45,778 nucleotides of DNA. Source: a virus. The stretch covers positions 1 to 45,778 of IMG/VR virus record IMGVR_UViG_3300045282_000136, one strand, 5' to 3'. Shown one piece after another: positions 10,867 to 45,773 of this stretch. Positions within the stretch are counted from its first letter, which is position 1. Each line of letters opens with the position of its first letter. A program made the translations under genes and the position numbers. Under the pieces are notes generated by a model. The model made no database searches and was not told the DNA's origin. It worked only from the letters and a program-made list of their open reading frames with translations.

Positions 10867-10943
10867 CACAGCCTCCCGCGCCCGAAGAACCCGAGTAGCG
10901 CGAGCACCAGAATGATGATCAGGATGATCCAGAGCAGACTCAT
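10866..10943 (-). CDS. 25-aa single-pass membrane peptide
   Basis: ATG 10943 has an AGGAGGAACGT ribosome site (5-6 bases spacing), one of the best in the region. The peptide is nearly all membrane span (WIILIIILVLALLGFFG) with a GRGRL basic end. Its stop overlaps the holin start. I recall similar 25-35 residue peptides in actinophage lysis cassettes, but no function is established. Confidence 0.75.
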   Translation of the reverse strand: MSLLWIILIIILVLALLGFFGRGRL

Positions 10944-10952
10944 ACGTTCCTC

Positions 10953-15088: not shown

Positions 15089-15970
15089 TCAGAGCAAACT
15101 CTCGCAGTGCCTAGGCAGCGCAGGCATGGCTGCTAACGCGAGCTCTGAACGGAACCGTTGCCACAACATGTTCCCGATAGCCGAAGAGGATCCAACACGG
15201 TTCGCTTGTTCGCGTTCGTCGATAGCACCCGCCGAGAACCTCACTCTGGCTGCCTCGCCGCTCATCAGAAGTGTGGCAGCGGCGTAGATCGGGAGCAGAT
15301 ACTCAGCTTGCGGGGGCCACAGAGGATCCAGTGTGTCGGTGACGCCTGTGAGTTTCGGGAATGGCCCAAACCCTCGCAGCCGAACCGTAGAGGCACTAGC
15401 GGGTGGGCTTCTGAACTTGATCGCCGGCAGGGTGGTCAAGCCGCCTTGTGCTGCACCACGGACGATCTCGAACCTGCGGGTATCCCTGAACGTCAGGTCC
15501 CCGGATTGGAGCACGTCGATTTTGTAGATGAACGGGATCGGGTAGCCCGTATACCCGGGCATGTCGGGAATGGTGTACCCGTAGGTGGTGTCTGAGCCGG
15601 TGAGGCTGGCGGCTACGGGTTTGTAGATCAGCGGGAAACACGCCTGGATCGCCTCGTTCAACGCGTCCAGAATCTCGATCGAGAAGAAGTTCGGGCGCAT
15701 CAACACACTCGAACTCGTCGCGTGAGAAGCTGCCGTTGACCCGTACAACCCCCTGCGGATCAGCAACGTCGTGGAGTTCTGGGGGGAAGCGGTGATCAAC
15801 ACCATCTCCTGGTCCACTTCCAGTGTCCACCGCTTCGCATAGATAGACGTGTCGGAGACGGTCATGCTGACCTGCCCCGCTGTCATCGCGGTGGTCGTGG
15901 TGTCCCAGTCCCGCCAATCACGGATGAACCTCCGGGTCTGTTGGATCAGCGTGGAAGCGCTGGTCGCCAT
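15089..15970 (-). CDS. Head-tail adaptor-like protein (gp11 type), 293 aa
   Basis: ATG 15970 overlaps the upstream stop (TAATG), so I reject the longer frame to 16063. N-terminal helices (LIQQTRRFIRDWRDWD), a beta-rich centre with two hydrophobic strands (EMVLITASPQNSTTLLIRRG), then long C-terminal helices (YLLPIYAAATLLMSGEAARVRF). The plan, length and place after the capsid and before the propeller gene fit an adaptor/gatekeeper. Assignment by context and general look. Confidence 0.6.
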   Translation of the reverse strand: MATSASTLIQQTRRFIRDWRDWDTTTTAMTAGQVSMTVSDTSIYAKRWTLEVDQEMVLITASPQNSTTLLIRRGLYGSTAASHATSSSVLMRPNFFSIEILDALNEAIQACFPLIYKPVAASLTGSDTTYGYTIPDMPGYTGYPIPFIYKIDVLQSGDLTFRDTRRFEIVRGAAQGGLTTLPAIKFRSPPASASTVRLRGFGPFPKLTGVTDTLDPLWPPQAEYLLPIYAAATLLMSGEAARVRFSAGAIDEREQANRVGSSSAIGNMLWQRFRSELALAAMPALPRHCESLL

Positions 15971-16853: not shown

Positions 16854-18011
16854 TTACAGCTTGCTCGAGTAGTAGCCGGTCGCTTCTGGGTTGCGGACTT
16901 CCATCGTCCACTCACCCAAACACCGGCGCTTGCGTGCGTCGGCGAAGTCGACAGCGGCGATCACGAACATGCCGCGTCCCTGCAGCGGGACCATGCGGAT
17001 CTTGTCCCTCATGAAGAGGAACGCGTCCCCAGTGTTGACCCGGGGGTCAACGACGACGTTGACGACGTTGCCCTGGTTCAACTGGACCTGCTGGACGGTG
17101 TAACCAACACCCTTGTCCGACTCCGCCAACCGACGGTTGGTCGAGTCATACCCCGTCACGGACCCGACGAGGTCGGTTCCGATCAGGAGGGTGTCCGGGA
17201 ACACACCCAGATCCACAATCGATTTGTTCTGGGTGTTGAGGTACGAATACGAGAACGAACCGGACGCCGTGTCACGGAACCCGGCCTGGCCGTTCCAGTA
17301 CCTCAACCCGCCCATGTACCGGTACTGAGACGCAGTACCAGGCCCGACCCGCTCAGAGTAGAGCGCGGCCCGTGAGAGCCCGATCTTCATCTCGATCGCC
17401 CGGTTGGCGAGCTGATGCGCCACCTCATCGCTCATTGCTGTCGTCGCCTTCTGCCGCGCCAACTCAGAACCCGTGATCTTCAGGTCATACCGACCCGCCA
17501 GAATATGGGTGTAGTTGGAACGAACAGTGGGTGTGAGGGATTTGTCCGAACCGATGTCGGAGCCTTCCTGCTCACCCGGGATAACAGCGAACGACGGCGT
17601 AAACGACGCCGAGTTCGAGGTAGCACCAGACGCGATCCACGCCGTGGTAAGAGCGTCTGTTGAGATCGCGGTGATCTGTAGAACAAGACCGACCGTACCC
17701 GTCGTGTCTGCTGCGTTCCTTGCGACGAGAAGGTCACCAACGTGGGTTCTTAGGCCCTGGCCGGCTGTCACGTTCACGGTCGTGGTCGCCGAGTTGTACA
17801 CCGACGCGCCGGTCACCGTGTCCGCGTTCAGAAGGTCTTCGTTCCACCAGTGCTGAATGTCGGTAGCGGGGCTACCGAAATCCACGTTCAGGTTCCCCAA
17901 CAGATGGAGGTCGTAGTACAGAGCGTCCGCCAGGACTGGCGAGATGTCTCTGATCTGTGCTCCGTCTGTGAGGTTAAAGGTGGCAAAGCCACCTGCTGCT
18001 TGCAGTGCCAT
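16854..18011 (-). CDS. Major capsid protein, SU10/DUF5309-like, 385 aa
   Basis: Forms the icosahedral head. The sequence matches what I know of the SU10-type HK97-fold capsid family: conserved helix ILAGRYDLKITGSELARQKA near residue 165, LANRAIEMKIGLSRAAL, then RYMGGLRYW, and a late beta region with VVVDPRVNTGDAFLFM. An inserted beta-rich segment lies at about 60-140. ATG 18011 follows AGGAGGTGAT at 5-6 bases, close to a perfect ribosome site, consistent with very high expression. Flanked by GC-rich hairpins on both sides and a 177-base leader. Confidence 0.85.
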   Translation of the reverse strand: MALQAAGGFATFNLTDGAQIRDISPVLADALYYDLHLLGNLNVDFGSPATDIQHWWNEDLLNADTVTGASVYNSATTTVNVTAGQGLRTHVGDLLVARNAADTTGTVGLVLQITAISTDALTTAWIASGATSNSASFTPSFAVIPGEQEGSDIGSDKSLTPTVRSNYTHILAGRYDLKITGSELARQKATTAMSDEVAHQLANRAIEMKIGLSRAALYSERVGPGTASQYRYMGGLRYWNGQAGFRDTASGSFSYSYLNTQNKSIVDLGVFPDTLLIGTDLVGSVTGYDSTNRRLAESDKGVGYTVQQVQLNQGNVVNVVVDPRVNTGDAFLFMRDKIRMVPLQGRGMFVIAAVDFADARKRRCLGEWTMEVRNPEATGYYSSKL

Positions 18012-31721: not shown

Positions 31722-31903
31722 TAGTGCCCGGCCCAGTCGAACGGGACATCGTGGTAGAGACTCCATCCGTGATCTGTGAACACTGATTCTCCCTCTGTTT
31801 GCTGCGACGGTGCAGCCTGAATAGGTTCAGACGGATAGGTCAAACCGGGCACCAGCAACCCTGGGTACGCACCGTAGATCACTCCATCCAGGGTGATCGT
31901 CAT
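31721..31903 (-). CDS. Small hypothetical protein, 60 aa
   Basis: ATG 31903 overlaps the stop of the tailspike gene (ATGA), and the TAG overlaps the portal GTG. The product, MTITLDGVIYGAYPGLLVPG..., is short and mixed, ending in LYHDVPFDWAGH. It lies between spike and portal genes. Not recognised. Confidence 0.65.
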   Translation of the reverse strand: MTITLDGVIYGAYPGLLVPGLTYPSEPIQAAPSQQTEGESVFTDHGWSLYHDVPFDWAGH

Positions 31904-33480
31904 TTCGCTACCCAGCCGGTGCTGCCGGTACCGAACTCCTTGACGTAGGAACAGGTGAACGAACTACCGTCTATACGTTTACAAGTAGACCCAACCCCGG
32001 CAACCTCGTTCCCCTCCGGGGTTCCAGCCCGAACGATGTCAAGCACGTTGTTTTTGAGATCGAGAACATCGTGTTGGTTGGAGCAGGCGCGTAGCTTGAT
32101 GTTGGTTCCGAGCACGGCGCCGCCTGACAGTTGGCTGCCGAACCGTGTGCCGACGGTGTTGAACGTAACCCCGACAACCTCGATGTTGTCGATCGTGATC
32201 GCGCTCGAACCGAACACCAAAACACCATGTTCGGTTGTGTTCCGCATCGAGCCACCCGAAATCGAGACGTTGCTTGTGTTGTCGAGAATCACACACTTTT
32301 TGGCGGTGCCCTGACCATCTATCACAAGCCCTGTGAGTGCTCCGCTGCCGCCGCCGATCGAAACGATGTACTCCGCCGCCTGGTAACAGGTAACCCCGGA
32401 AAGCGAGAATCCCACCGCTGACTGGGTCTTGATCGACGTGCCAGTACAGCCACGGATGGTGCCACCCGTAACCGATGTGTAGTCGGAGTTGTTGCCGCCT
32501 CCCGCGTCGAGGATGATGCCCGCGCTCGTCAACCCGTTCCCGTCAATACCGTTGCCCTGAATTTGGGCGTAGCGGCTTCCCGCCACCTCGATTCCATAGG
32601 TCTTCGCGTTGTAAAGACTAGGGTTGTTAGAGACATTGGCCCCATCGCAGGCAGCTACCGAAATGGCGTAGTTACCGCCCTCGCTGTGCGTCCCCGAGAT
32701 CTTCGCGCCAGGGGAATAGGTGGTCTCGATACAAATCGCGGCAGCATCTGTTGGGCTGACCGGCATCAAGACACGAGTGCCCTCCACACGGACCCGCTTG
32801 TAGCTGTGGGAGCTAGTGCCGTGAACCTTCAAACCACCCTCACTGATCGATCCGGCAGCGATACCAGTGCGGTCAACACTGTTGTAGGTCGCCCGGAAGT
32901 CGGTGAGGTCTGCGCTGGTTGCCTCCGCGAAAATCGAGATGTAGTCAGTGTTCAAAGCGGTGCAACCATCCACCCAGGCGTTGTTCGCGTTAAGTGAGTA
33001 GACACCGATGCGTTTGCCGTTCTGGACTGTTATCCCGCGAACAACACAGTCGTCGGCAGCGATGCGGATGATGTCGTTGCTGACCGACTGGTTCGCTTTG
33101 TTTCCGTCCCAGATACCCGGCCCCTCAAGATGAGCACCGGCACCCGTCAACGACAACAACGTCCCGGACGTAGAAGCCTTCTGAGTCACCGTCCCATAAC
33201 TCAGAACGGTCACTCCGGTCGGAACGGTTACCGAGGTCAACTGGTACGAATCAGGCGGGATAACAACAACTTTCGCCCCTGAATCAAACGCTGCTTGGAA
33301 CTGGGTGGTGTCGTTCTGGCCCCCACCGAGCGCACCATAGGCGGCGTCTTTGACGCTTACAGCACGGGACCTGAGCTCATAGACTCCAGCGTCCCAGACC
33401 TCAATGTCCTGCGCCCGCACCAGCGTGTCGGTTGTGGTCCAGTCATGCCATGCCGCCCGTGCTCGAGCGGGGAGAGCCAT
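31900..33480 (-). CDS. Tailspike with pectate-lyase-type parallel beta-helix, 526 aa
   Basis: The N-terminal 45 residues (MALPARARAAWHDWTT...) are a likely virion-attachment part. A pectate-lyase-3-like start (VKDAAYGALGGGQNDTTQFQ and AFDSGAKVVVIPPDSYQL) opens a long series of short strand repeats such as RIGVYSLNANNAWVDGC, IEVAGSRYAQIQGNGI, IDNIEVVG. This is the parallel beta-helix of phage tailspikes that bind or cut surface glycans. Catalytic residues are not clear. The ATG follows the upstream TAA with no gap (TAAATG). Confidence 0.8.
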   Translation of the reverse strand: MALPARARAAWHDWTTTDTLVRAQDIEVWDAGVYELRSRAVSVKDAAYGALGGGQNDTTQFQAAFDSGAKVVVIPPDSYQLTSVTVPTGVTVLSYGTVTQKASTSGTLLSLTGAGAHLEGPGIWDGNKANQSVSNDIIRIAADDCVVRGITVQNGKRIGVYSLNANNAWVDGCTALNTDYISIFAEATSADLTDFRATYNSVDRTGIAAGSISEGGLKVHGTSSHSYKRVRVEGTRVLMPVSPTDAAAICIETTYSPGAKISGTHSEGGNYAISVAACDGANVSNNPSLYNAKTYGIEVAGSRYAQIQGNGIDGNGLTSAGIILDAGGGNNSDYTSVTGGTIRGCTGTSIKTQSAVGFSLSGVTCYQAAEYIVSIGGGSGALTGLVIDGQGTAKKCVILDNTSNVSISGGSMRNTTEHGVLVFGSSAITIDNIEVVGVTFNTVGTRFGSQLSGGAVLGTNIKLRACSNQHDVLDLKNNVLDIVRAGTPEGNEVAGVGSTCKRIDGSSFTCSYVKEFGTGSTGWVAK

Positions 33481-34059
33481 TTAGCTTGCGGCCATGTAAA
33501 ACGACTGGGCACCCGCCGAGATAGCCGCTGTTGCGGGTAGATCAGAAAGCCCGGTCTGTGTTCCAAGCGGCTTCGCGCCCGTACCGACAGCAAGCCCTCC
33601 TATCAACTGGTTGTTGCCGCGATACAAGGTAATACCAGCTCCTACAGGCAGATACGCCAGGTAGTAGCCGTTGTCGGAAAGGATCGTGTATGGAGCCGTC
33701 AAGTTGGTTTTGACCATGGTTCCGTTCGCGCCCGTGCCGAAGTTCGCATGATTAGAAGCACTCACAGCAAGCTGAACACCGTTCAGGTCGTATATTCCAA
33801 CTTTGACCAGCGTCACAGATCCTGACCCTGTGCCTAAAGCAACAGTAATCGCCGAGACTAGGTCTCCTGCTTTGAACCCGACCAGACCGAACCAGGCGTC
33901 ACCGGCTGTTATCGCCGTTGTCGAAAGGTTCGCCTGCCCGTCAAGAGTCTCAGCGATTATTCCGCGTGCCTTCAACGAGATGCCCCTACGGCTGTCAGCG
34001 TTGATCGCGTCGATCAGATCTTGTCTAGTAGCACCGAACGAATCAATCTTGGTTGGCAT
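33481..34059 (-). CDS. Virion protein, probable fibre-associated, 192 aa
   Basis: A helical N-terminus (SFGATRQDLIDAINADSR) is followed by a beta-sandwich-like domain rich in Gly, Thr, Asn (AWFGLVGFKAGDLVSAIT, VGIYDLNGVQLAVSAS, GYYLAYLPVGAGITLY). It abuts the terminase stop (TAGATG). Similar domains occur in tail fibre tips. Not identified further. Confidence 0.6.
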   Translation of the reverse strand: MPTKIDSFGATRQDLIDAINADSRRGISLKARGIIAETLDGQANLSTTAITAGDAWFGLVGFKAGDLVSAITVALGTGSGSVTLVKVGIYDLNGVQLAVSASNHANFGTGANGTMVKTNLTAPYTILSDNGYYLAYLPVGAGITLYRGNNQLIGGLAVGTGAKPLGTQTGLSDLPATAAISAGAQSFYMAAS

Positions 34060-35610
34060 CTAAGCCTCCACTCTCGGGTAGTACGGGTTCCTAACAGTCC
34101 GGCGACGCTGGCTCGACCCATACGTCCACGCCATCGGCTTCTTCATGTAATTCGAAGACTTGTACTTCGGACCAGTCTCCTGAAGTTGTTTCCACGCGAA
34201 CCACAACGCCATCACCGTGTCCGTTGTACGGCCCGGATACTGGATCAACTCATCCACAAGTTGGCCCATCTTCCGCATCGATGCGGGGTCGCCCCAGGGG
34301 ATGTGGAACTCGCCGTTCTCGAAATGCGGCCCCATCCTCTGCACACCAAGCTCCGGGTCAGGCTTGTTAGTTCGAGTGGTGTAGTGGGGTTCGATGTTGA
34401 ACGCCAACCCCAACTCGCTCATCTTGCTCTTCAACGCATCCACAAGGCCCTGCTGGTACGAGTTCGCCTCAACCACACTCTTCAGCAGCTCGTATTTCTG
34501 GTGTTGCAACAGGATCGTGTCGACCTGCTGCGGAAGACTCAACTGGTCGCGGATCATGTCGACGACCCAGAAGCAACGTTCGTGGTCCCGACAAGACCCG
34601 GCAGCAAGTGTGACGTGCGCACAGAACTTCGCGGACTTGGTTAACCCGACGGCGGGGTCGAAGCCGGCGACTTTCCGCCAACCCGGGTCGTAGTCACCGA
34701 CCTTGTAGGTTTTATCGACGCAACCCCGGTACTGGGTTTTGCCGATCCAGCCGCCCTTGACGTACTCCTCCTTGAACACCATCCGCGACTTATCAACGGC
34801 GATGTTGCGCAACCGTTTGTTGAAGTCGAGTGTGCCCATCTCGGCTTTGAGGGCCATGAGTTCTTCCCACGGCCACCACGCCGGCCACAACGCTTTTTTC
34901 TCGTCCTCGTCGACGATCGCGTCCTCACGCTGCACATACCAGATCGGCGCCCCTGTTTCCGGGTTTGCGAGTTCGATCAGGTCGTTGTAGAGGTCCGACG
35001 GGTCAAAGAGCGTTCCAACCACGGTGAGCCGAGCACCAGGAACACCCATCGTTCTGACGGACTGGTTGAACCACTCCCGCAGCTTCTGGCGTTGCTCCGG
35101 AGTATTCGAGTTCTTCTCGGTGACAACGTCGTCGCAGATCGTCCAGTCGGTGCGGTGACCCAGCGTGTGCTTGCTTGATGATCCGAAGAACGCAAGAGTC
35201 GGCTCCTTATGGATCTGGGTGCGCTTCGCGACCGTCATCTTCCCTGCCGCCCACGGCTTGTCGTCACCCGGCTCAGGATGGAACGGGCCGAAGTCACGGA
35301 TCAACTCAACGTTCTGCGCAAGCTCAGCCTGAATCGCAAGACTGATGTTGTTGGCTTCGGCGTCGTTCTTGCCGATGATCCCCAACCGCATGTCCGGGTT
35401 TTGGCAGATCGCCCAGATCGGCAGCAACGTAGACACCAACGTTGTTTTCCCGTGAGCTGCGGGGTACAGGATCAGCGCCCGCGACTCCGAGGTCGCTGAA
35501 TTGATCAACCTGAGATGAAACGCCTCGAGCTTCTGGATCCGGTGCTTGAAGTAATGGCTGACGAACAGGTCCGGATGCTCGAGGAGCAAACCTTTGGCTT
35601 CTTGGCTCAT
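34060..35610 (-). CDS. terL: Large terminase (packaging ATPase-nuclease), 516 aa
   Basis: ATPase domain: Walker A PAAHGKTT (residues 50-57), Walker B WTICDD (156-161). Nuclease domain: Asp318 in AGFDPAVG, Glu381 in SVVEANS, Asp464 in TTDTVMAL, the expected acidic triad. It cuts and pumps the concatemer into the prohead through the portal. ATG 35610 overlaps the upstream gene stop (ATGA). Length is normal for the family. Confidence 0.93.
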   Translation of the reverse strand: MSQEAKGLLLEHPDLFVSHYFKHRIQKLEAFHLRLINSATSESRALILYPAAHGKTTLVSTLLPIWAICQNPDMRLGIIGKNDAEANNISLAIQAELAQNVELIRDFGPFHPEPGDDKPWAAGKMTVAKRTQIHKEPTLAFFGSSSKHTLGHRTDWTICDDVVTEKNSNTPEQRQKLREWFNQSVRTMGVPGARLTVVGTLFDPSDLYNDLIELANPETGAPIWYVQREDAIVDEDEKKALWPAWWPWEELMALKAEMGTLDFNKRLRNIAVDKSRMVFKEEYVKGGWIGKTQYRGCVDKTYKVGDYDPGWRKVAGFDPAVGLTKSAKFCAHVTLAAGSCRDHERCFWVVDMIRDQLSLPQQVDTILLQHQKYELLKSVVEANSYQQGLVDALKSKMSELGLAFNIEPHYTTRTNKPDPELGVQRMGPHFENGEFHIPWGDPASMRKMGQLVDELIQYPGRTTDTVMALWFAWKQLQETGPKYKSSNYMKKPMAWTYGSSQRRRTVRNPYYPRVEA

Positions 35611-35831
35611 GTCACGATACTCAGACCGTACGACGGGTTCGCGCCACGGAAGATGTTGTAGGTAGCCGTCACCGTCTTATCGACGTTCTGGTCAAACGCC
35701 CCGATCAGACGAGACCCCTCGATAATGCTTTGACGAACCATCGACTTCTCCGCGTCCGTCAGAGTGCTGTCGGTGTGGATGCTGTCGATCGCGTCCTGGA
35801 GACTACGGCCCTTACCGGATTTGCTTGGCAT
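35607..35831 (-). CDS. Small hypothetical protein adjacent to terL, 74 aa
   Basis: ATG 35831 is preferred to the GTG at 35840 because the GAGGGGGT ribosome site is about 8 bases upstream of the ATG. The protein has a helical first half (SLQDAIDSIHTDSTLTDAEK) and a beta-like end (VTATYNIFRGANPSYG). It could be a small terminase, but no helix-turn-helix is clear. Confidence 0.6.
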   Translation of the reverse strand: MPSKSGKGRSLQDAIDSIHTDSTLTDAEKSMVRQSIIEGSRLIGAFDQNVDKTVTATYNIFRGANPSYGLSIVT

Positions 35832-35836
35832 AGATG

Positions 35837-36025
35837 TCACCCCCTCAACTGGTGCTCGAGATTGCGCTCTCTATCAGCGCGTGCTGCCTGATCCCACAAG
35901 TGCCTGTCCAAAGTGGCTGTGCGCAACCACTTGTTGAATGCCGGCCGTTCCCAACCACAATCCGGACAGGCGGGTTCTTTCCTGTCGAACCATTCCCGAC
36001 AGGACATGCAATACGTTTCGCCCAT
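35837..36025 (-). CDS. Zinc-ribbon protein, 62 aa
   Basis: An N-terminal zinc ribbon has two CxxC knuckles (YCMSCREWF and PACPDCGWE). A basic helical tail follows. ATG 36025 abuts the upstream TAG (TAGATG). A nucleic-acid or assembly partner role for packaging is possible; unknown family. Confidence 0.65.
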   Translation of the reverse strand: MGETYCMSCREWFDRKEPACPDCGWERPAFNKWLRTATLDRHLWDQAARADRERNLEHQLRG

Positions 36026-36220
36026 CTAGTAGGGGCGGACACCCTCGGTAACCGGGGGCAAAGGTGTCGGGGGAGGCATCGGCGGGACGATCGCCGGGGT
36101 GATCACGTTCGGGTCTGTTTCCCGGTGGGCTGGGGTTGGTTGCACATGCGTGATCGACGGGTTCGGGGCGCCCGCCCCTTCACCGAACGGAAGGTCATGT
36201 GTCATCGGCTGGTGTGTCAT
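36026..36220 (-). CDS. Proline-rich small protein, 64 aa
   Basis: ATG 36220 has GGAGGTGG at a good distance, so the longer frame to 36253 is rejected. The protein is mostly Pro/Thr-rich (THVQPTPAHRETDPNV, PPMPPPTPLPPV) and probably disordered. It overlaps the end of the upstream gene by 26 bases. Not recognised. Confidence 0.55.
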   Translation of the reverse strand: MTHQPMTHDLPFGEGAGAPNPSITHVQPTPAHRETDPNVITPAIVPPMPPPTPLPPVTEGVRPY

Positions 36221-36542
36221 CGTCCACCTCCAAAGCGTTGGTAAGCCCGGCACGCAACGTGTCGAGCCGGTCGAGTTCCTGAAGGATCAGTTCGCGTTTC
36301 CGGTCGTCTGGGAGATCAACACTGTTGATGACCTCCAACGGATCGATCTCCTCGCCCTCATCCTTCGGCTTCTCTGGCTCCCGTTGTTTCAGCAGCAACA
36401 GGCCAAGGTTGAGGAGACCGGTCCCGGGAAGCTTTGCACGCTCCCCCTCATCTTTGAAACGCCTTTCGAGCTCAGAGATGACCTCGTTGAAGAGGGCGTC
36501 TACGCGGCCACTTGCTGTTGTTCCCGGATCCACGCCAGACAC
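36195..36542 (-). CDS. Small terminase candidate, about 115 aa
   Basis: Helical protein with VDALFNEVISELERRFKDE, LPGTGLLNLGLLLLKQ and a leucine-rich C-terminal helix (LILQELDRLDTLRAGL). Composition and position upstream of terL fit a small terminase subunit, but there is no visible DNA-binding motif. The start is uncertain: GTG 36542 is used, GTG 36533 is near, and both lie inside the epimerase gene end. Confidence 0.5.
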   Translation of the reverse strand: MSGVDPGTTASGRVDALFNEVISELERRFKDEGERAKLPGTGLLNLGLLLLKQREPEKPKDEGEEIDPLEVINSVDLPDDRKRELILQELDRLDTLRAGLTNALEVDDDTPADDT

Positions 36543-37423
36543 TCCGCCATCCCCTCCTCCAGGCTCACCGACGGGGACCAACCGAGATCCCGAAGCTTCC
36601 TTGTCGACAACCGCTTCACGACGGTCTGTCTTTCCGGGGGGTTGATCATCTCGATCAGGTCATGGTCGGCACCGGTCAGGTCACACGCCATCTCAGCTAC
36701 TTGGCGCATAGGGCGGGGGTCGTCGTCGCGGCCGACGTTGAAGATTCCGCCCGGGGTATCCAGAATCATCCGGACACCCCGAACGGTGTCCCCTACCCAA
36801 CACCAAGACCGCTCCGAGGCTTTGTGGACCGGGATCGTCTGCCGGTTGTCTGCCTGCCACAGCATGTTGATGATGGCGGCACGGCCCCGGCCGGCTGGAA
36901 GACCGGGACCGTACGGCATTGAGAGACGCAGGATGGTCAACCCATTTGGGCAGTAGAGACGGGAGATCTCCTCACCCCAACGTTTGCTCAACCCGTAAGC
37001 GTTATGCGGAATCCGGTGCGGCGCAACAGACCGTCCAAGGTTTTCTTCGTAGCAGGTGACGTTCGCCTCGTCCCCGTAAACCTCCGACGTGGATGCGTAC
37101 ACCAGCCGGATGTTGCGCTCACCGCACTCCTTCGCCACAAGAGCTGTGATCCCCGCGTTATCAGCGATCGTGCGTTGAACGTCGTCCTCACCGAACAGTC
37201 TCCCCACCTTCGCGGCGAGGTGGATCACCATTTGTGGTGAGTTGAGTTTCAGCAGTTCACGGAGATCGTCGCGTTTGCTGATGTCTTTTCCGAACATCAC
37301 CTCGTCTACTGAGCGGCCGTGGAAGTCGATGTCTACCCCGTCGACGTGGTGTCCTGCCTCGCGGAGTTCGCGGCAGAGATGTGTGCCGATGAAACCGGCT
37401 GAGCCTGTGACGAGGATTCTCAT
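36500..37423 (-). CDS. NAD-dependent sugar epimerase/dehydratase, 307 aa
   Basis: Extended SDR enzyme. The NAD-binding GSAGFIG (residues 7-13, a GxxGxxG motif) follows the first strand; HLAAKVG is the next conserved loop; a YGLSK motif (YxxxK) at about 144-148 and Ser/Thr in YASTSEVYG complete the active site. It acts on a nucleotide-activated sugar in the cytoplasm, typically at C4 or as a dehydratase. It lies in a group of glycosyltransferases, so it probably makes or modifies their sugar donor. ATG 37423 overlaps the upstream stop (ATGA). Confidence 0.88.
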   Translation of the reverse strand: MRILVTGSAGFIGTHLCRELREAGHHVDGVDIDFHGRSVDEVMFGKDISKRDDLRELLKLNSPQMVIHLAAKVGRLFGEDDVQRTIADNAGITALVAKECGERNIRLVYASTSEVYGDEANVTCYEENLGRSVAPHRIPHNAYGLSKRWGEEISRLYCPNGLTILRLSMPYGPGLPAGRGRAAIINMLWQADNRQTIPVHKASERSWCWVGDTVRGVRMILDTPGGIFNVGRDDDPRPMRQVAEMACDLTGADHDLIEMINPPERQTVVKRLSTRKLRDLGWSPSVSLEEGMAECLAWIREQQQVAA

Positions 37424-38193
37424 GGCCTCTCGATCATCATGTGGGAGAACTTCTCAGGATGGTCCAACACATAAGGCGGAAGATCATCTGTCCACTCCAA
37501 CTCCTGCTTCACCACATCGGGGAACAGCGGCATCCCCATCTGCGCCCCAGCAAGATCAGCGTGCGGGACTAGCTCCTGGTGAACAAACGACCTGAGTTTG
37601 TATTCGGGGTTGTTCATCCAAGATAGATGCCATCCGGGAGGTCCTATGGGTTCCATGTGGTGGAGGCGAGCCTCTTCTAGATCCTTGTAAAGCTCACCAA
37701 CGTAGGCTGCCGGGAAGATCCTCGCGATCTGCCACGACTCATGTGCGGGAGCGGCCCATCGCCAGTTGAGCTTCGCGACGTGCATGTTGCAGAGAAGAAT
37801 GTGTTCGTCGTATCCCTTCGGTTGCAACATCGCCGCTTCCACAGCATCCGGGTGGGGGATCTCATCCAAGTCGCTGAGCAGAATCCAGTCTTCGTTCCGG
37901 TCGCCTTTGAACCCGTACCAGAGACACTTGCGTTGTCGTTTCTCCCGTGTCCAGTCATGCACCCCGGTTGGCATCTCTATGACACGGTGGATGATCTTGT
38001 CGCGCCACGGATCCCAGCGTGGGAGATGGAGGTCTTTGAGGAGGTGGAGTTCCTTCGGATGCCCGCTATGCGTGACGGGGCTTTCGCCGATTACATGGAA
38101 GTCCACAACGTCATCGAGGGTTGCGAGTCGGATCTCGAGGATGTCGAGCTCGTCGAAGAACGGGGTTAGGCTCCAGACAGCCACAGTGCCCAC
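37420..38193 (-). CDS. GT17-like glycosyltransferase, 257 aa
   Basis: The pattern SLTPFFDELDILEIRL, VDFHVIGESPVTHSG, and a DLDEIP metal-binding motif (108-113) matches Glyco_transf_17, the family of the bisecting GlcNAc transferase and bacterial relatives. Trp/His residues downstream (WHLSWMNN) also fit. Starts at GTG 38193, or GTG 38184 with the same frame. The preceding gene overlaps it by about 28 bases. Confidence 0.75.
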   Translation of the reverse strand: MGTVAVWSLTPFFDELDILEIRLATLDDVVDFHVIGESPVTHSGHPKELHLLKDLHLPRWDPWRDKIIHRVIEMPTGVHDWTREKRQRKCLWYGFKGDRNEDWILLSDLDEIPHPDAVEAAMLQPKGYDEHILLCNMHVAKLNWRWAAPAHESWQIARIFPAAYVGELYKDLEEARLHHMEPIGPPGWHLSWMNNPEYKLRSFVHQELVPHADLAGAQMGMPLFPDVVKQELEWTDDLPPYVLDHPEKFSHMMIERP

Positions 38194-38783
38194 TGGTCGA
38201 ACTTGGCCCGGTCAGCCCACATCCGTTGCTCCCATGTCATCCCGGCACCCCTGCCTGCCTCGGCTAGTGAGTGTGTGAAGAGGTAATCGTTATGGACGCC
38301 GGTGGCGATGCCGTGCTTTGCTGCCGCGTACGAAATGCAGTTGTCGGTGAAGTAGTGAGTCTCTCGTAGGAACGGCTCGACTTGAACACGGATGTCGTTC
38401 CAGAGTTGACGAGAGAGAAAAGGGATTCGACTAAAATCGGTTTGGTAGCCGGTCGGGTGGTCAGTTTCCCAACCGTCCGAGCCGCCGCACGACTGAAGGG
38501 TGTTGTCATCGTTCAGGATTCGTGGGGCTGGAAGGAAACCGCGACCGACAACTTCCCTTGCTGCAACGTCCCATCCTTCATGCGGAGATAGATCGTCTGC
38601 TGAGAAATGCACGAAGTCTCCCCGCGCTGTAGACATTCCATCAACCCAGGCCACGCCACAAGCGGGTCTGTCTTCGATGACGATGGCTTCGTACTCTCCT
38701 GCTGTGTTTTCTTTGTACGCCCGAAGACAGGTTTCGAGATGGCGTTCACGCCCAGCGATGGTCGGCACAACGACACTGATCAA
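38166..38783 (-). CDS. GT2-like glycosyltransferase (GT-A fold), 205 aa
   Basis: The first strand and donor-binding loop ISVVVPTIAGRERHLETCL, the strand AIVIEDRPACG, and HFSADDLSP (Asp63/64 region) match the nucleotide- and metal-binding core of GT2 enzymes. The TTG at 38783 overlaps the upstream stop (TTGA). The acceptor is unknown: DNA base, virion protein or host wall are all possible. Confidence 0.75.
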   Translation of the reverse strand: MISVVVPTIAGRERHLETCLRAYKENTAGEYEAIVIEDRPACGVAWVDGMSTARGDFVHFSADDLSPHEGWDVAAREVVGRGFLPAPRILNDDNTLQSCGGSDGWETDHPTGYQTDFSRIPFLSRQLWNDIRVQVEPFLRETHYFTDNCISYAAAKHGIATGVHNDYLFTHSLAEAGRGAGMTWEQRMWADRAKFDQWALWLSGA

Positions 38784-38935
38784 CCCTTACGCTGGCCGGG
38801 ATAGAAACCCTGGATGATGTCCTGGCGGCTAGCAGACTTCGACGGACGCGGTGACCAGTACGCCCAGCCAGCCCGGATCCGCAGCTTGTCCGTTTCCGAC
38901 CACACCAGCTTCGCGTTCGGTTTCGTGCCCGCCAT
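38780..38935 (-). CDS. Small basic hypothetical protein, 51 aa
   Basis: A 52-codon frame between a TGATG overlap (with 38935-39153) and a TTGA overlap (with the GT2 gene). The product (MAGTKPNAKLVWSETDK, then WAYWSPRPSKSASRQD) is basic and aromatic. It lies inside the sugar cassette. Not recognised. Confidence 0.65.
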   Translation of the reverse strand: MAGTKPNAKLVWSETDKLRIRAGWAYWSPRPSKSASRQDIIQGFYPGQRKG

Positions 38936-39153
38936 CAGCCCTCAGCCTTCTCCTCAGCCAGATCAGAGGCGTCGGCGGCGTCGATCTCGTCCGCGAGCTC
39001 TTGTGGGATCTCCGATCCCTTGAACAGACCTTTGGTTGTGCTGTACATGTCTTCGTTGGATTGGGGGATCTTGATGACGCTGATCACATCGTTGACTGTG
39101 ATCTTCTGTCCGCCGACCTCGTATGTGGTGAGTTTCTCTTTCTTCGCTGCCAT
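38935..39153 (-). CDS. Small hypothetical protein, 72 aa
   Basis: ATG 39153 follows TTTAGGAGGAAAC. The protein is basic at the start (MAAKKEKLTTYEVGG), acidic at the end (EIDAADASDLAEEKAEG) and may be a compact beta-alpha fold. It sits between glycosyltransferase genes, so it may be a minor virion protein or an enzyme partner. Unknown. Confidence 0.65.
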   Translation of the reverse strand: MAAKKEKLTTYEVGGQKITVNDVISVIKIPQSNEDMYSTTKGLFKGSEIPQELADEIDAADASDLAEEKAEG

Positions 39154-39161
39154 GTTTCCTC

Positions 39162-39842
39162 CTAAACGCTGGTTTCTGGTACGAGCCCTCTGAGCATCGC
39201 TGTGCGCCTGTAGTAGGCGGGGTACTCGTTGAACTGATGGAAACTGATGTTGTTGGCTACCGTCGGAATAAGCCGGCCAACCATCCAGCCGCTCTGCTGA
39301 ATCGCGATCGACGCTTTTGTGTCTTCATCCATTCCACCGGGACGCCAGGTGCCAGGCTCCCACCGAAACCCGTTGTCGTAGATTTCTCTCCGGATGACAC
39401 AATTACCTCCCGGGTTCGTGAGCCATAGCCCCCAGCGTTCCTCATAGGGTGGCCCGGCGGGATAATCCTCATGTGCGTTCAGGATCCCGAGTTGCCCGAG
39501 GTGGGGGAGACGCTCGAAGGTGGCTTCTACTTCTTCTCGCCAGCCGGGTAGGTATTCGATGTCGTTGTCGGAGCGGTGGAGAAGATCGCACTGAGGGAAC
39601 CCCAGCAGAAGACGATGCCAGCCGATATTCGCGGCGGCCCCGGGGAACAGGTTCTTCTCATTGTGGACGATGCAGATCCGGTTTGAGAGAAGCGACTCGA
39701 TGTATTCGCTGGTTCCATCTGTGCTTGCGTTGTCGACGATGGCGAGTACCGCGTCGTCCCCGACCGTCTTGACATAGCTGTCGATCGTCTTCTTGGTGTA
39801 CTCAAGACGGTCGTGGCAAACGATAACGCTGTGGATCTTCAC
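39162..39842 (-). CDS. GT2-family glycosyltransferase, 226 aa
   Basis: Classic GT2 layout: IHSVIVCHDRLEYTKKTID, LAIVDNASTDGTSEYIE, NLFPGAAANIGW, and the DxD motif RSDND (92-94). The later TWRPGGMDEDTKAS motif is in the acceptor part. GTG 39842 overlaps the upstream stop (GTGA). Transfers a sugar from a nucleotide donor; acceptor unknown. Confidence 0.85.
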   Translation of the reverse strand: MKIHSVIVCHDRLEYTKKTIDSYVKTVGDDAVLAIVDNASTDGTSEYIESLLSNRICIVHNEKNLFPGAAANIGWHRLLLGFPQCDLLHRSDNDIEYLPGWREEVEATFERLPHLGQLGILNAHEDYPAGPPYEERWGLWLTNPGGNCVIRREIYDNGFRWEPGTWRPGGMDEDTKASIAIQQSGWMVGRLIPTVANNISFHQFNEYPAYYRRTAMLRGLVPETSV

Positions 39843-40396
39843 GCAGGCTGGAACTGGTTGCCGGTTTCGCCGCTATGGAATCTGTATGTCCACAACACCT
39901 CGGGGACGCATTTGAACCTTCCGCCGTGTAACCAGATCCGTTGCCAGAGCTCCCAGTCCTCGAGGGGCTGGTTGTGGTAGCCGCCGACCATGTTGAACAT
40001 GTCCCGGCGGATCAGCGCGGTGTTGGGGATGAAGTTGCGGCGAAACAACATCTTCGCGTTGAACAACCTATTTGGGCACCAATCTGTTCTGCCGACCATG
40101 CGTGTCCACGAATAGACAACGTCGGCGTCTACTCCTGCTCGGACCAGTTGCTCACAGCAATCGGGATCGAGTACGTCGTCGTCATCGAGTGGGAGGAGCC
40201 ATTCAGTGGTCGCATCTTTTGCAAGGTTGTTGCGGGTACGTTGTGGACCAAGACGCTTCCCGTCACACGCGACGAGGTGAGTGACCTTGACGGTTTGGGC
40301 TTGGACGGATTCACTGCACGCCTCCAGTAACTCAACCCGTTCGGGGAGCGTCGGGGTGATGACGGTGACGTTTACGCTACCGCTGGAACTCGTCAC
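39839..40396 (-). CDS. GT2-family glycosyltransferase, 185 aa
   Basis: Short GT2 enzyme. VTVITPTLPERVELLEACS opens the fold, LPLDDDDVLDP (71-74 region) is the metal-binding DxD, and HNQPLEDWELWQRIW is a typical acceptor-side motif. GTG 40396 overlaps the upstream stop (GTGA). Translationally linked to the GT2 gene downstream. Confidence 0.85.
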   Translation of the reverse strand: MTSSSGSVNVTVITPTLPERVELLEACSESVQAQTVKVTHLVACDGKRLGPQRTRNNLAKDATTEWLLPLDDDDVLDPDCCEQLVRAGVDADVVYSWTRMVGRTDWCPNRLFNAKMLFRRNFIPNTALIRRDMFNMVGGYHNQPLEDWELWQRIWLHGGRFKCVPEVLWTYRFHSGETGNQFQPA

Positions 40397-40647
40397 AGCT
40401 TCGCTACTTCCACAACGGCGCTGCGAGGGATGAACGTAGCCCCGGCAACTCGTATCCCTTCGTCGTTACCGAGGTAGACAGACGCCGCAACAACCAATCC
40501 TTCGTCCGTGTCGCTGACAAGGAACCCAGCCGACTCATGGATCAGCTCATCCTTCGTCGGCAACACACCCTCGGGGTTGAACCAACTACCCTCGCCGAGG
40601 ATCATCGAGTCTGTCCATCTGACATGAACAAGTTTCGGCCGCTTCAC
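40393..40647 (-). CDS. Hypothetical protein, 84 aa
   Basis: GTG 40647 overlaps the GT4 stop (GTGA), so I use it instead of the long upstream frame. The product (MKRPKLVHVRWTDSM, then DELIHESAGFLVSDTDEG) is a small beta-rich protein ending in PRSAVVEVAKL. It lies in the sugar cassette. Not recognised. Confidence 0.65.
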   Translation of the reverse strand: MKRPKLVHVRWTDSMILGEGSWFNPEGVLPTKDELIHESAGFLVSDTDEGLVVAASVYLGNDEGIRVAGATFIPRSAVVEVAKL

Positions 40648-41753
40648 GCTACCGCTGGTTCCGGTGTCCACAACTGTTTCCTCGCGGCAGCCTGGTCGGC
40701 CAAGCCTTGGTAGAGAGTTTCCCAGTCTTCGATATGTCGCTCGTAGGTGAACATCTGCGCCTGCTCGTATGCGGCGCGACCCATCGCTGCGAGACGATCG
40801 GGTTCGGCTATAAGCGTGTCGAGCGCCTGTTTCCACTGGAACGGCAACTCACAGAGGTACCCGTTGGTTCCGTCCTCGATGAGCTCTTTGTACTGGGCGG
40901 TCGGGGTCGCTAGCGGCACGATCCCGCACGCCGAATACTCCAAGCCTTTGAGGTAGCTCTTGCCCTCGTTGAACCTGTTCTGCGCCAACGGCACCAAACC
41001 GATGTCCATCACTGAGGTGATGTAGGCGAGCTCCAGGTGGCGGTAGTCAGTGCGATCAGTTGTGACTCTCTGGGCTTCCGGGATGTTGAGGAAATCATGT
41101 ACGTCCGCGCCTCCCACAGAAACGAACTCGACACTTCGGTGATCTTCAAGCCACCCAGACAGCCACGGACGTATGACCTCAAGATCAGCCTTGTGATATT
41201 CCAGGATCCCCATCCACCCGACACGCAACCGCCTCCATTCCTTGCGCTCATACACCGGGGCTAGTTCTGACCACATGGGCCAGTGGAGCCGGTTTCGTAG
41301 CACGGTGATGTTCGGGTTCAGTTTCTCGTACGACCGTTTCAAACTTGGTGTGCTGACGGTGACGTGGTCGGCCATGCTGACGGTCTGGTGGAACACAGCC
41401 GGGTCGTCGTTGAAGGGGTTGTAGGCCGGCACATGCAAAAGGTCATCGTCGACCTCGACCACAACCTTTTTCCCGGCCTCATGGATCTGAGTAATGATCT
41501 CCGGGACGTTCGGGGTGTTCGCCATCTGCAACACGTACACGTCCGCGTCGGGCCAATCACCGAAACTACACGTCACCCAACCTTCAGGTAGCTGCCCGTC
41601 CGGGAAAACCTGGACGGGTTGCCCGTCGGGCCGTGTGAACGCCATTGGGGGACACTGAGCGAAATGCCCCCGTTCGGTGAGGTAGTGCGCGGGGAACAGA
41701 CACCGGTACCAACCCGACGCATCAATATTCTTGGGGAGAAAGCAGACCCTCAA
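40644..41753 (-). CDS. GT4-like (GT-B) glycosyltransferase, 369 aa
   Basis: Two Rossmann-like halves. First half: MRVCFLPKNIDASGWYRC, VYVLQMANTPNVPEII, KKVVVEVDDDLLH. Second half: RLRVGWMGILEYHKADL, VEFVSVGGADVHDF, DIGLVPLAQNRFNEGKS, a GT4-type donor-site tail with GKSYLKGLEYSACG. TTG 41753 overlaps the upstream stop (TTGA). Retaining glycosyltransferases of this kind use nucleotide sugars; acceptor unknown. Confidence 0.82.
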   Translation of the reverse strand: MRVCFLPKNIDASGWYRCLFPAHYLTERGHFAQCPPMAFTRPDGQPVQVFPDGQLPEGWVTCSFGDWPDADVYVLQMANTPNVPEIITQIHEAGKKVVVEVDDDLLHVPAYNPFNDDPAVFHQTVSMADHVTVSTPSLKRSYEKLNPNITVLRNRLHWPMWSELAPVYERKEWRRLRVGWMGILEYHKADLEVIRPWLSGWLEDHRSVEFVSVGGADVHDFLNIPEAQRVTTDRTDYRHLELAYITSVMDIGLVPLAQNRFNEGKSYLKGLEYSACGIVPLATPTAQYKELIEDGTNGYLCELPFQWKQALDTLIAEPDRLAAMGRAAYEQAQMFTYERHIEDWETLYQGLADQAAARKQLWTPEPAVA

Positions 41754-41971
41754 CGGTTGACCATGATCCTCGGGAAGAGCTGAACATGCTCACCCGGCTT
41801 GATCGGCTGAGGATGATCAGCCAACCACTCGACCTTGCCGCCAGCCGGAATCGCAATGACCGAACCGGGACCGAACGGCATATCCTCCGGGCCAGGTTCG
41901 CGGAAGCCCAGTTCGATCTCGAGCTTCCGGATTCGGCGCAACGTCTCCTGGTGCTTGCGGTTGCGGCTCAC
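41750..41971 (-). CDS. Hypothetical protein, 73 aa
   Basis: GTG 41971 overlaps the upstream stop (GTGA). A basic helix (RKHQETLRRIRKLEIEL) precedes a beta-rich part (GSVIAIPAGGKVEWLADHP). Not recognised. Confidence 0.65.
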   Translation of the reverse strand: MSRNRKHQETLRRIRKLEIELGFREPGPEDMPFGPGSVIAIPAGGKVEWLADHPQPIKPGEHVQLFPRIMVNR

Positions 41972-42255
41972 CAGCCGACCAGCATCCTCGCATAGCCGAC
42001 CCGGGTGAGTTTCGCCCAGCCCGCATAACCCCTAGCCGAGGACAGCGCCCCGTTCCGGGCGGCCACCTCACACCTTCTCTTGTCGCCCTCCGGGTACGAA
42101 CACCCAAACGTCCACTGCCCACGGCGTTTCACCTCGAGCCGCCACCCCTGGTCCTCCACCAGCCGGTACCGGGTTCTGAGCAGCCACCACGCAACCAGCC
42201 GAATATGAACCGGGTCACGGCGCGGCCTTGCCTTCGGGACCCGCTCAACCCTCAC
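41968..42255 (-). CDS. Strongly basic hypothetical protein, 95 aa
   Basis: GTG 42255 overlaps the stop of the 41-aa basic protein (GTGA). The product is rich in Arg, Trp and Gly (VAWWLLRTRYRLVEDQG, KRRGQWTFGCSYPEGD). Nucleic-acid binding is plausible from charge. Not recognised. Confidence 0.6.
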   Translation of the reverse strand: MRVERVPKARPRRDPVHIRLVAWWLLRTRYRLVEDQGWRLEVKRRGQWTFGCSYPEGDKRRCEVAARNGALSSARGYAGWAKLTRVGYARMLVGW

Positions 42256-42377
42256 TTCTTGCGCTTCTTCTTCTTGCCGTACCCAGCCTCACGCATAACC
42301 TTCTTCGCCGCCGCCGTGCCCTTCTTCCGTTGCACACTCAGGAAAATGGCTTCGCGCTGCTTTTCAGGCCACGGCAT
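42252..42377 (-). CDS. Small Lys/Arg-rich protein, 41 aa
   Basis: A 42-codon frame overlapping the upstream gene by 14 bases and ending in a GTGA overlap. The product, MPWPEKQREAIFLSVQRKK..., ends in GYGKKKKRKK. I recall short, very basic proteins of this kind in actinophages. Probably nucleic-acid binding; role unknown. Confidence 0.7.
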   Translation of the reverse strand: MPWPEKQREAIFLSVQRKKGTAAAKKVMREAGYGKKKKRKK

Positions 42378-42627
42378 CGCGGGCCTCCTCACGCGACGAA
42401 CCAAGGATGAAATCGTGGTTCGCTTCGATCCGAACCAGCATGATCAGCTTCGGGTGACCCTCTACTTCATGCCGAGAAGGAACATCCATCCACCGCAAAA
42501 CCCCGGTCCGCACAACCTCTTCGTACTCCTCCTGGCTGAAGAACCGGACATTCCCAACCTCGTCAAGAAGCGGCTTGAAGTAACCGCCCTCCCTCGTTGT
42601 GTAGACCAACATCGTCTCGCCGTTCAC
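42364..42627 (-). CDS. Hypothetical protein, 87 aa
   Basis: GTG 42627 overlaps the upstream stop (GTGA). The protein has a beta-rich start (TMLVYTTREGGYFKPLL) and an acidic middle with a few hydrophobic strands (LIMLVRIEANHDF). Not recognised. Confidence 0.65.
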   Translation of the reverse strand: MNGETMLVYTTREGGYFKPLLDEVGNVRFFSQEEYEEVVRTGVLRWMDVPSRHEVEGHPKLIMLVRIEANHDFILGSSREEARDAVA

Positions 42628-42842
42628 GAGTAGTCGCCGCCCTTCGCCCGGATCAAAGCCTCACGCTCCGCCTTGTCCGCCTCCACCCGCCTGACCTCAG
42701 CCTCAACCCGGTCGCACTCGGTCGACAACACCTTCCGGATCCAACCGGACAGCCGAAACCCCCTTGCAACCGCAGCACCGCGCCAGCGGTCCCAATCCTC
42801 ATCCGACACACGCAACGTACGGACAGGGGTCACACCAGACAT
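42624..42842 (-). CDS. Ribbon-helix-helix-like small DNA-binding protein, 72 aa
   Basis: TLRVSDEDWDRWRGAAVARG is followed by RLSGWIRKVLSTEC, the strand-helix-helix pattern of Arc/CopG-type proteins. A charged helix tail (EVRRVEADKAEREALI) follows. ATG 42842 lies inside the end of the endonuclease gene (13-base overlap). It may regulate the late arm. Its DNA site is unknown. Confidence 0.6.
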   Translation of the reverse strand: MSGVTPVRTLRVSDEDWDRWRGAAVARGFRLSGWIRKVLSTECDRVEAEVRRVEADKAEREALIRAKGGDYS

Positions 42843-43438
42843 AGATCCCGCAAATCAAGCTGCGACAAATGTGCCGCCCAGCGGAAAACAACTTCCGGGT
42901 CATCGCCAGCCTGACCAAGCGACGTATTACAAGCCAAGTGGAGCAACCCCCGGACACGGCCCGTCGCATGGTCATGGTCAACATGAGGACCCTCGATCTG
43001 ACCACGCAAACTCTTGAACGGCTGGTGACACGCCGCACAACAGTGCCCCTGTTTCTCCAGCAAATCCCAAAAAATTTCTGGTGTAATACCGAAGCCTTTG
43101 AGAACCTGAGCTCGGCTAGAACACTTCTGGCCAGGGCAATACACCTGGTTCTTGCGAGCCATGAACACCTCCCGGCACATACGGCATCGCTTCTCCTTGC
43201 GCGGCCTAGGCGGCTTCATAACCATCAGCCAACACTCCCTAGAACAGAACCGCTTACCAGCGTGAACCTCAACACCAATCTCGACACCACACCCAGCACA
43301 CTCACGCACCAAGTCCGTCAGACCACGAAGCCCGCGCTGATACTCCCTGTGATACGCCCGATGACAGTCCCGGCAATACGGGCTATACGCAAGCCGCTCC
43401 CCCTCACACCGCGCACACGACTTCGCTGTCTCACACAC
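42830..43438 (-). CDS. Endonuclease VII-like protein with several zinc modules, 202 aa
   Basis: The C-terminal part has PHVDHDHATGRVRGLLH and LACNTSLGQAGDDP (about 151-180), the signature of T4 gp49-type (recombination endonuclease VII) HNH enzymes that resolve branched DNA before packaging. Upstream are three Cys clusters (C8xxC11/C22xxC25, C47xxC50/C65x3C69, C85xxC88/C101...C106) and one in the core (C134xxC137). GTG 43438 is used. First gene of the late arm. Confidence 0.85.
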   Translation of the reverse strand: MCETAKSCARCEGERLAYSPYCRDCHRAYHREYQRGLRGLTDLVRECAGCGVEIGVEVHAGKRFCSRECWLMVMKPPRPRKEKRCRMCREVFMARKNQVYCPGQKCSSRAQVLKGFGITPEIFWDLLEKQGHCCAACHQPFKSLRGQIEGPHVDHDHATGRVRGLLHLACNTSLGQAGDDPEVVFRWAAHLSQLDLRDLCLV

Positions 43439-44543: not shown

Positions 44544-45113
44544 TCACGCAGCGTTGAGCACTTCGTCGCCGGGCAGAAACTCTGCTGTCAGCTCATCCGG
44601 CACAAAGGGTTCCAGGGGCCATCTCATGACTCCTCCGTCCTGCCACCGCCCAACAGGCTCCCCCGCATGATTGTCCCAGTTGGAGCCGAGCCAATCCACC
44701 CCCTCCTTCACCTGGTCCACCAACACTTGCCGGTTGAAGGAGAGCCGTAGTTGGTGGGATTGGGTGAGCCTTGTGTCCTCGAACAGGGTGCCGTGGCTCC
44801 TGTAGCGGATGGTTCGGGGGGCTGTGTAGACGGGGAACCTGTTCGACCTGAAATACCACTCCGAAACATGCCAATACGTTGGAGGCTCCACTAACCGCAG
44901 CTCTTTGACAAGTCTTTCGAGAGCCCGGTAGGAGGGGCTCGAGGTGAAGATGGTCGACTGGATCCCGGTCTCGTCCCCGGCGTCGTACCCCTCAGAACTC
45001 CACAGGGTCTCCTGACACGAAACCATGTGCGTCAGCAACGTATCTATGACCTCTTGGCGCGCAGTCAACCTGTAGACATCCGACAAGCTCTTGTGGAAAG
45101 AGGCTTGCTTCAC
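44544..45113 (-). CDS. Conserved phage hypothetical protein, 189 aa
   Basis: GTG 45113 overlaps the LAGLIDADG gene stop (GTGA). The protein starts with a helical region (ARQEVIDTLLTHMVSCQETL), then YDAGDETGIQSTIFTSSPSYR and WHVSEWYFRSNRFPVYTAP. I have the impression of a conserved actinophage family, but no function is known. The C-terminus is acidic and Leu/Pro-rich. Confidence 0.6.
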   Translation of the reverse strand: MKQASFHKSLSDVYRLTARQEVIDTLLTHMVSCQETLWSSEGYDAGDETGIQSTIFTSSPSYRALERLVKELRLVEPPTYWHVSEWYFRSNRFPVYTAPRTIRYRSHGTLFEDTRLTQSHQLRLSFNRQVLVDQVKEGVDWLGSNWDNHAGEPVGRWQDGGVMRWPLEPFVPDELTAEFLPGDEVLNAA

Positions 45114-45592
45114 GCCGCTGCCCTGATCCGTTGGTACTGCCATTTTCTGTAACACCGCTTGGAGCAGTGGGTCTGCCTCGCACCGTTCGGAGGCCATACC
45201 GGGCAAAACTCAGCACCACATCCCACACACGAACGCGCATACATCAGCGTGGACTGATAGTCCCGCCTACGGCCCAGCACCTCCTCCGCACGCCCTCTGC
45301 GGCGCTCACAAAGCCACGGAAGGATCATCCGAAGGAAATACTCCGCTGGTCCACCAACCAGTTGCCAGGCCCATTGGTCCTTGTGATGAGCAGGGGCGCT
45401 GGGACTCCTTGACAATCTGACCGTACCCGCCCCGATGATCCCGACGAAGCGTTCCATTACATCCTTATCAGTGGACCTCATCGACACCTGAACGAGAGCC
45501 TTAGACATAGTGATGCAGCCCTCGCCTTCAAACAAACCGATGGCCCAGGCGAGGTCAGTCGTCAGCACACCACCCGGATTAGCCTTAGCCAT
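45110..45592 (-). CDS. LAGLIDADG-type homing endonuclease-like protein with zinc finger, 160 aa
   Basis: One LAGLIDADG-like motif, LAWAIGLFEGEGCITMS (residues about 14-30), leads a domain of about 100 residues with strands (ALVQVSMRSTDK, WAWQLVGGPAEYF). The C-terminal 35 residues form a zinc finger: CVGCGAEFCPVW and HCSKRCYRKW. Single-motif proteins of this type act as dimers. ATG 45592 is assumed; TTG 45607 and ATG 45655 are in frame too. Homing enzymes in a phage often drive their own spread. Activity is not shown. Confidence 0.75.
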   Translation of the reverse strand: MAKANPGGVLTTDLAWAIGLFEGEGCITMSKALVQVSMRSTDKDVMERFVGIIGAGTVRLSRSPSAPAHHKDQWAWQLVGGPAEYFLRMILPWLCERRRGRAEEVLGRRRDYQSTLMYARSCVGCGAEFCPVWPPNGARQTHCSKRCYRKWQYQRIRAAA

Positions 45593-45626
45593 AGCGGAAA
45601 CCAATGAGGAACGTTCCTTTCCTCCA

Positions 45627-45773
45627 TTAGTCCACCACTGACGACCGTTCACCATCTTTCCGCTCAGCGCGTACTGCTTCACGCTCGAGCTCCCTGAGCC
45701 GCTTCGACGGCCAGATAACCTCCGCAAGCAGCAGGATCCGGTCGGTTTCGTCGCAGAACGGCACCAGCTTCAT
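45627..45773 (-). CDS. Small charged helical protein, 48 aa
   Basis: ATG 45773 begins 3 bases after what would be GAGG if the ends are joined. The product is MKLVPFCDETDRILLLAEV, then a charged helix (PSKRLRELEREAVRAERKD). It ends at TAA 45627, which overlaps an ATG. Not recognised. The ribosome-site argument depends on the circular join. Confidence 0.6.
   Translation of the reverse strand: MKLVPFCDETDRILLLAEVIWPSKRLRELEREAVRAERKDGERSSVVD

Follow-up and report, generated by a model that had tools for sequence, protein, structure and literature searches.

A recurrent viral sugar-enzyme cassette and its probable role in glycosylation of virion proteins

The window analyzed here is the whole of IMG/VR virus record IMGVR_UViG_3300045282_000136 (45,778 bases, classed linear; 59.8% GC). 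On its minus strand, between positions 36500 and 41753, six enzymes of sugar metabolism are encoded: a sugar-nucleotide short-chain dehydrogenase/reductase (SDR), a GT17-like glycosyltransferase (GT), the product of a gene at 38166, two GT2 enzymes and a GT4 enzyme, i.e. five transferases and one SDR. Glycosylation of virion proteins is the best reading of this cassette and, judged from sequence, a probable one. Many viruses with no close relationship share the SDR and the 38166-type transferase as a core pair, a pattern suggestive of a tool set that belongs to viruses and serves to attach sugars to their particles.

If so, a module expressed late would decorate proteins of the phage particle. 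The SDR would turn a nucleotide sugar of the host into a donor reserved for the pathway. Transfer of the sugar thus made would fall to the 38166-type enzyme, the constant partner of the SDR, and further sugars would be added by the GT2, GT17 and GT4 enzymes, whose presence differs from phage to phage. The acceptor would be one or more abundant virion proteins. With several predicted transferases side by side, an oligosaccharide could plausibly be assembled one step at a time.

Recurrence of the module in other viruses

With an alignment of the SDR as bait, relatives at 35-60% identity were found in 46 further IMG/VR virus contigs. Clustering of the SDR loci at 95% nucleotide identity gave 38 loci, including the window and the single close relative of it that was found, IMGVR_UViG_3300045303_000191 (48,457 bp; G001 below); the 31 loci with enough flanking sequence were counted. 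Gene content was determined by six-frame profile search, as calling of longest open reading frames (ORFs) is unsuitable in GC-rich DNA, where antisense shadow ORFs win.

In 25 of the 31 non-redundant loci a 38166-type gene lay no more than 3 kb from the SDR; for GT17 the number was 7. Removal of the seed loci (the window, G001 and L106, described below) left the 38166-type gene near the SDR in 22 of 28. Under a stricter count, with whole stop-to-stop frames and a limit of 250 nucleotides (nt), it was found 12 times upstream and once downstream of the SDR among the 31. In contrast, none of 79 control phage loci, chosen by GT4 alone, carried a 38166-type gene, and the SDRs present there were only distant ones (Fisher P 2e-19 for the core pair, a rough guide because the loci are related). 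All 31 loci held a further transferase from the local families; this figure is partly due to construction, because the local profiles were built from the same loci, while the 0/79 control is not. The 39839-type GT2 was carried by 12 non-redundant loci, and no module match fell on the opposite strand in any of the 31.

Genes for the large terminase subunit (TerL), portal, capsid, protease or tape measure were seen in the same stretch in 22 of the 31 loci; the last four names come from reading the sequences of cluster representatives, not from a family search. Several arrangements were repeated: (i) eight loci have TerL (or are cut off before it), a GT2-like gene, GT2, GT2, the 38166-type gene, SDR, portal, protease, another GT and, mostly, the major capsid protein (MCP) gene; (ii) four loci have portal, SDR, 38166-type gene and tape measure; (iii) several have GT4, GT, 38166-type gene and SDR. 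One of the eight, IMGVR_UViG_3300031999_000091 (L016/L106), has a GT17 gene between the 38166-type gene and the SDR; its order of GT2, GT2, 38166-type, GT17 and SDR (58% identical) is that of the window, and the block follows TerL and precedes the portal gene.

Trees of the SDR and of the 38166-type protein group the loci largely by phage type; therefore, the module is mostly passed down along with the phage type. Even so, it is carried by phages with no fewer than three distinct, unrelated portal families.

Operon structure and conservation

The named sugar enzymes of the first-pass annotation, which had been made from the sequence alone, were all recovered at the coordinates given there, and family motifs are retained in all six; its totals, ‘five-enzyme’ and ‘four different transferases’, were undercounts. 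The overlapping operon that it had placed at 36500-41753 is real in its tight packing and larger in extent: from 42255 through the cassette to TerL, all neighboring genes either overlap by 1-59 nt or are separated by 0-8 nt (as ORF starts were chosen by us, exact overlap lengths are approximate). Scans for promoter-like and terminator-like sites gave no excess over shuffled sequence.

All six enzymes are conserved in order and reading frame in G001, with 74-94% amino acid (aa) identity (91% for the GT4). The ratio of nonsynonymous to synonymous divergence (dN/dS) between the window and G001 is 0.077 for the SDR, 0.105 for GT17, 0.177 for 38166, 0.088 for the 39839 GT2 and 0.093 for GT4; the values of TerL and the capsid protein, for comparison, are 0.069 and 0.038. 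For the 39162 GT2 dS is saturated, hence no ratio is given. All five enzymes for which a ratio could be calculated evolve under purifying selection. With order and frames kept in G001 and ratios of 0.08-0.18, the cassette is not a product of chance. The upstream ORF 41968-42255 is 82% identical in G001.

The core pair

The SDR has the NAD-binding glycine motif TGxxGFIG at residues 6-13 and a YxxxK active site. The label ‘epimerase’ given to it in the first pass was too specific: its ASTSEVYG, with Y143 and K147, is the motif of UDP-glucuronate decarboxylase, unlike GalE, and Glu after the catalytic Ser/Thr marks dehydratases and decarboxylases. Among 32 sequences of the SDR subfamily S113, E114, Y143 and K147 are invariant and T112 nearly so. 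The solved GalE 4zrm has STGGAIYG at the TSE site of the SDR; the SDR does not have this type of loop, in which no Glu follows the catalytic residue. The best profile matches in PDB were proteins related to dTDP-glucose 4,6-dehydratase and UDP-glucuronate decarboxylases. A scan of cellular genomes with two short peptide patterns returned at least eight relatives of the SDR, with no more than 28% identity among the matches listed, and no phage in INPHARED matched the SDR at E 1e-20. The subfamily is likely to be restricted to viruses.

For the 38166 protein, called GT2-like in the first pass, membership in GT2 was not borne out by the profile: PF00535 gave 15.4 bits (E 0.018), short of the curated cut-off of 23.3. 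The likeness to a glycosyltransferase held at the level of fold. The AlphaFold2 model, built from a 25-sequence alignment (pLDDT 94, pTM 0.90), matched GT-A glycosyltransferases in a Foldseek search of PDB (best E 4e-8), and the protein thus models as a GT-A fold glycosyltransferase. Polypeptide GalNAc-transferases headed the matches; WrtF and TarP followed so closely that the ranking shows no acceptor, and generic GT-A similarity would explain it equally well. Residues P7, T8, R12, W46, D63, D64, W71, D147 and H171 are invariant in 25 relatives. Besides G001, homologues occur in Microcystis phage Mae-JY09 (40.5% identity) and in three virus contigs.

One could speculate that a protein glycosylation pathway owned by viruses is built around this pair: the SDR would supply a donor sugar of its own, and the 38166-type enzyme, as a member of an undescribed family, would attach the first sugar of the glycan to a virion protein; we offer this narrower proposal as a tentative one, with more doubt than confidence.

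What the cassette modifies

Apart from virion proteins, three other targets were considered. The cassette could alter glycans of the host surface during infection, so as to keep other phages from adsorbing or progeny from being lost to cell debris. Soluble GT2 and GT4 enzymes are known in surface polysaccharide synthesis, and the window carries an integrase, so a lysogenic stage is possible. However, none of the six enzymes has a transmembrane segment, no flippase or lipid-carrier enzyme was among the family matches in the cassette, and the gene layout ties the cassette to packaging genes rather than to lysogeny genes; we regard this explanation as unlikely.

Somewhat less likely is glycosylation of the phage DNA, which would shield it from host nucleases. 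Hydroxymethylated bases can be substrates of phage glycosyltransferases (PMC6024577), and DNA is an acceptor that all phages with the module would share. Yet PF00145 (5mC methylase) was found in just 3 of 23 module-bearing records and PF00303 (thymidylate synthase/hydroxymethylase-type) in 1 of 23, with neither in the window or G001, and in the local clusters that we looked at the core pair had no recurrent neighbor of the base-modifying kind. A search for PF12851 (TET/JBP) was empty in all 23 records, with its positive controls silent too. No base-modifying enzyme had been seen in the first-pass annotation. Since PF00145 and PF00303 are absent from both close genomes and the cassette genes sit among head genes, DNA is the less likely acceptor.

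The idea that the cassette specifically modifies the tailspike or another receptor-binding protein draws on the location of the probable tailspike gene (31900-33480) and of 33481-34059 directly downstream of TerL, and it is very unlikely: G001 keeps the cassette with a different tailspike, whose similarity is limited to 119 N-terminal residues (47% identity), and has no detectable homologue of the 33481-34059 protein, which argues that these two proteins are not the sole acceptors.

Several observations weigh against glycosylation of virion proteins: placement in a late operon is deduced from gene layout; 9 of the 31 loci have no detectable structural gene (the limited local profiles may explain this); no acceptor protein was found, and none of the Ser/Thr-rich stretches listed in structural proteins as candidate acceptors stands out; a gene of the gp110 type (see the comparison with mycobacteriophage Che8 below) is absent from the window and G001; and the TET/JBP search, with no working positive control, leaves room for an unusual route of DNA modification. 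On balance, protein glycosylation is better supported than DNA glycosylation, in accord with the preference expressed in the first pass, because overlaps join the cassette to the packaging operon, the core recurs among head genes of unrelated phages, no dedicated enzyme for DNA bases was found in the window or G001, and several relatives carry a gp110 homologue.

Genes of the cassette and the window phage

The genes of the operon are listed in Table 1. The GT17-like protein passed the cut-off of PF04724 (49 bits versus 26). Its residues D108, D110, E111, W188 and H189 are invariant across 9 relatives. Its model is weaker than that of the 38166 protein (pLDDT 80) and matched general GT-A folds only, with low TM-scores; no solved relative was found by sequence. 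No PHROGs family was matched by any tested protein of the 38166 or GT17 type.

Table 1. Features of the operon in order of transcription
Feature	Coordinates	Strand	Evidence
Two small upstream ORFs, 41968-42255 and 41750-41971, overlapping the GT4 start	41750..42255	-	4-nt overlaps
GT4-like glycosyltransferase, 369 aa, first cassette enzyme	40644..41753	-	PF13524 E 1.6e-6, phrog_7162 E 5e-33
Small protein, overlaps the GT4 end	40393..40669 (GTG at 40669 or 40645)	-	ORF and codon preference
GT2 glycosyltransferase, 185 aa, DDDD motif	39839..40396	-	PF00535 E 6e-9, phrog_14775 E 4e-14
GT2 glycosyltransferase, 226 aa, DND motif	39162..39842	-	PF00535 E 4e-11; same position in other cassettes
Small protein, 72 aa	38935..39153	-	residues 5-72 identical in G001
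Small protein, 51 aa	38780..38935	-	98% identical in G001
38166-type GT-A glycosyltransferase (by model), 205 aa, core partner of the SDR	38166..38783	-	AlphaFold2 and Foldseek; GT2 score below cut-off
GT17-like glycosyltransferase, 257 aa, DLDE motif	37420..38193	-	PF04724 E 6e-13
Sugar-nucleotide SDR, 307 aa	36500..37423	-	PF01370 E 2e-37
Downstream part of the operon: four small ORFs and TerL (34060-35610)	34060..36533	-	every junction overlapping or abutting

The small ORFs of the cassette have relatives in G001 only, and the one at 40393-40669 had no tblastn match there. A shared small protein as the acceptor common to all cassettes was considered and dropped, as these ORFs are confined to the window and G001. 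Conservation of the 38935-39153 protein is far above that of the neighboring transferases, and its codon use resembles that of large structural genes. Two extra ORFs lie between cassette genes in G001 (L010:9472-9894 and 10617-11006); the former resembles the LAGLIDADG-like ORF 45110-45727 of the window, and the extra sequence is perhaps a homing endonuclease insertion.

The MCP of the window (16854-18011) matches SU10_MCP (PF17236, E 3e-30), the portal-like gene 29574-31766 matches phrog_332 and TerL matches phrog_38 (E 4e-59); as the three point there together, the window seems to come from a short-tailed phage. The 31900-33480 product is a beta-helix protein (PF13229), probably the tailspike. 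A near-identity search with the right third of the window against 50,697 phage records found no near relative, a TerL alignment as bait retrieved G001 and one 22% match, and tblastn in INPHARED with the MCP, both GT2 proteins and the SDR had no match at the thresholds used. Both ends of G001 match window positions 15125-15286; thus G001 looks complete and circularly permuted.

The two genomes differ in places. The segment 31900-34059, with the tailspike and the 33481 protein, has been exchanged between conserved neighbors, a likely swap of a host-range module. The tyrosine integrase at 1849-2805 (phrog_1, E 4e-39) has just a partial, 26% match in G001; hence the integration modules differ as well. 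Region 42252-42627 is near-identical (dS 0.02 for 42364-42627) against 80-90% identity elsewhere, which suggests a recent exchange. An Endonuclease VII family protein (42830-43438; PF02945, E 8e-18) is encoded upstream of the cassette.

Comparison with known systems

According to PMC12363180, which cites Freeman et al. 2023, mycobacteriophages glycosylate capsid and tail tube proteins, and gp110 is one of the enzymes that capsid glycosylation requires; virion glycosylation in Che8, Corndog and Myrna is credited to the same study in PMC12363180, PMC12691614 and PMC11256854. Che8, like the window, encodes its own transferases. They are three consecutive genes, gp108-110, near the right end, with no SDR among them, whereas the window has an SDR, GT17, GT4 and the 38166-type enzyme in a packaging operon. 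The profile of the GT located between the protease and capsid genes in eight relatives scored 51.7 bits with Che8 gp110, a homologue; the 39839-type profile scored 34.7 bits with gp108, a weak match in a generic GT2 region.

Microcystis phage Mae-JY09 has its 38166-type enzyme beside an SDR and a GT4, between the capsid and head-tail adaptor genes; its SDR is only 28-30% similar, its GT4 is of another type, and the other listed genes of this head block match neither the GT17 nor the two GT2 of the window. Streptomyces phage Zuko has an SDR-GT4 pair close upstream of the terminase, and the GT4 of the window is 28-32% identical to the GTs of Atuin and Zuko. We note that Zuko gene 4 (L012:1319-2380), annotated as ‘UDP-glucose dehydrogenase’, reads as an SDR similar to dTDP-glucose 4,6-dehydratase (STDEVFG, YSASK).

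As for individual enzymes, UDP-glucuronate decarboxylase and dTDP-glucose 4,6-dehydratase share the S/T-x-E triad and YxxxK with the SDR of the window; they are distant in sequence, and the substrate is not inferable from it. The GT17-like protein has the DxDE motif and an above-cut-off score in common with the MGAT3-type GT17 family (PF04724), the match covering the middle of the profile only.

The kind of function is known; the scale and the conserved core pair are new. Virion glycosylation has been reported for few phages, while the core pair recurs among head genes in dozens of uncultured ones. An SDR of this subfamily beside a 38166-type transferase among head genes may serve as a signature predicting phages with glycosylated particles, and the enzymes of the cassette are candidates for the synthesis and attachment of an unusual sugar.

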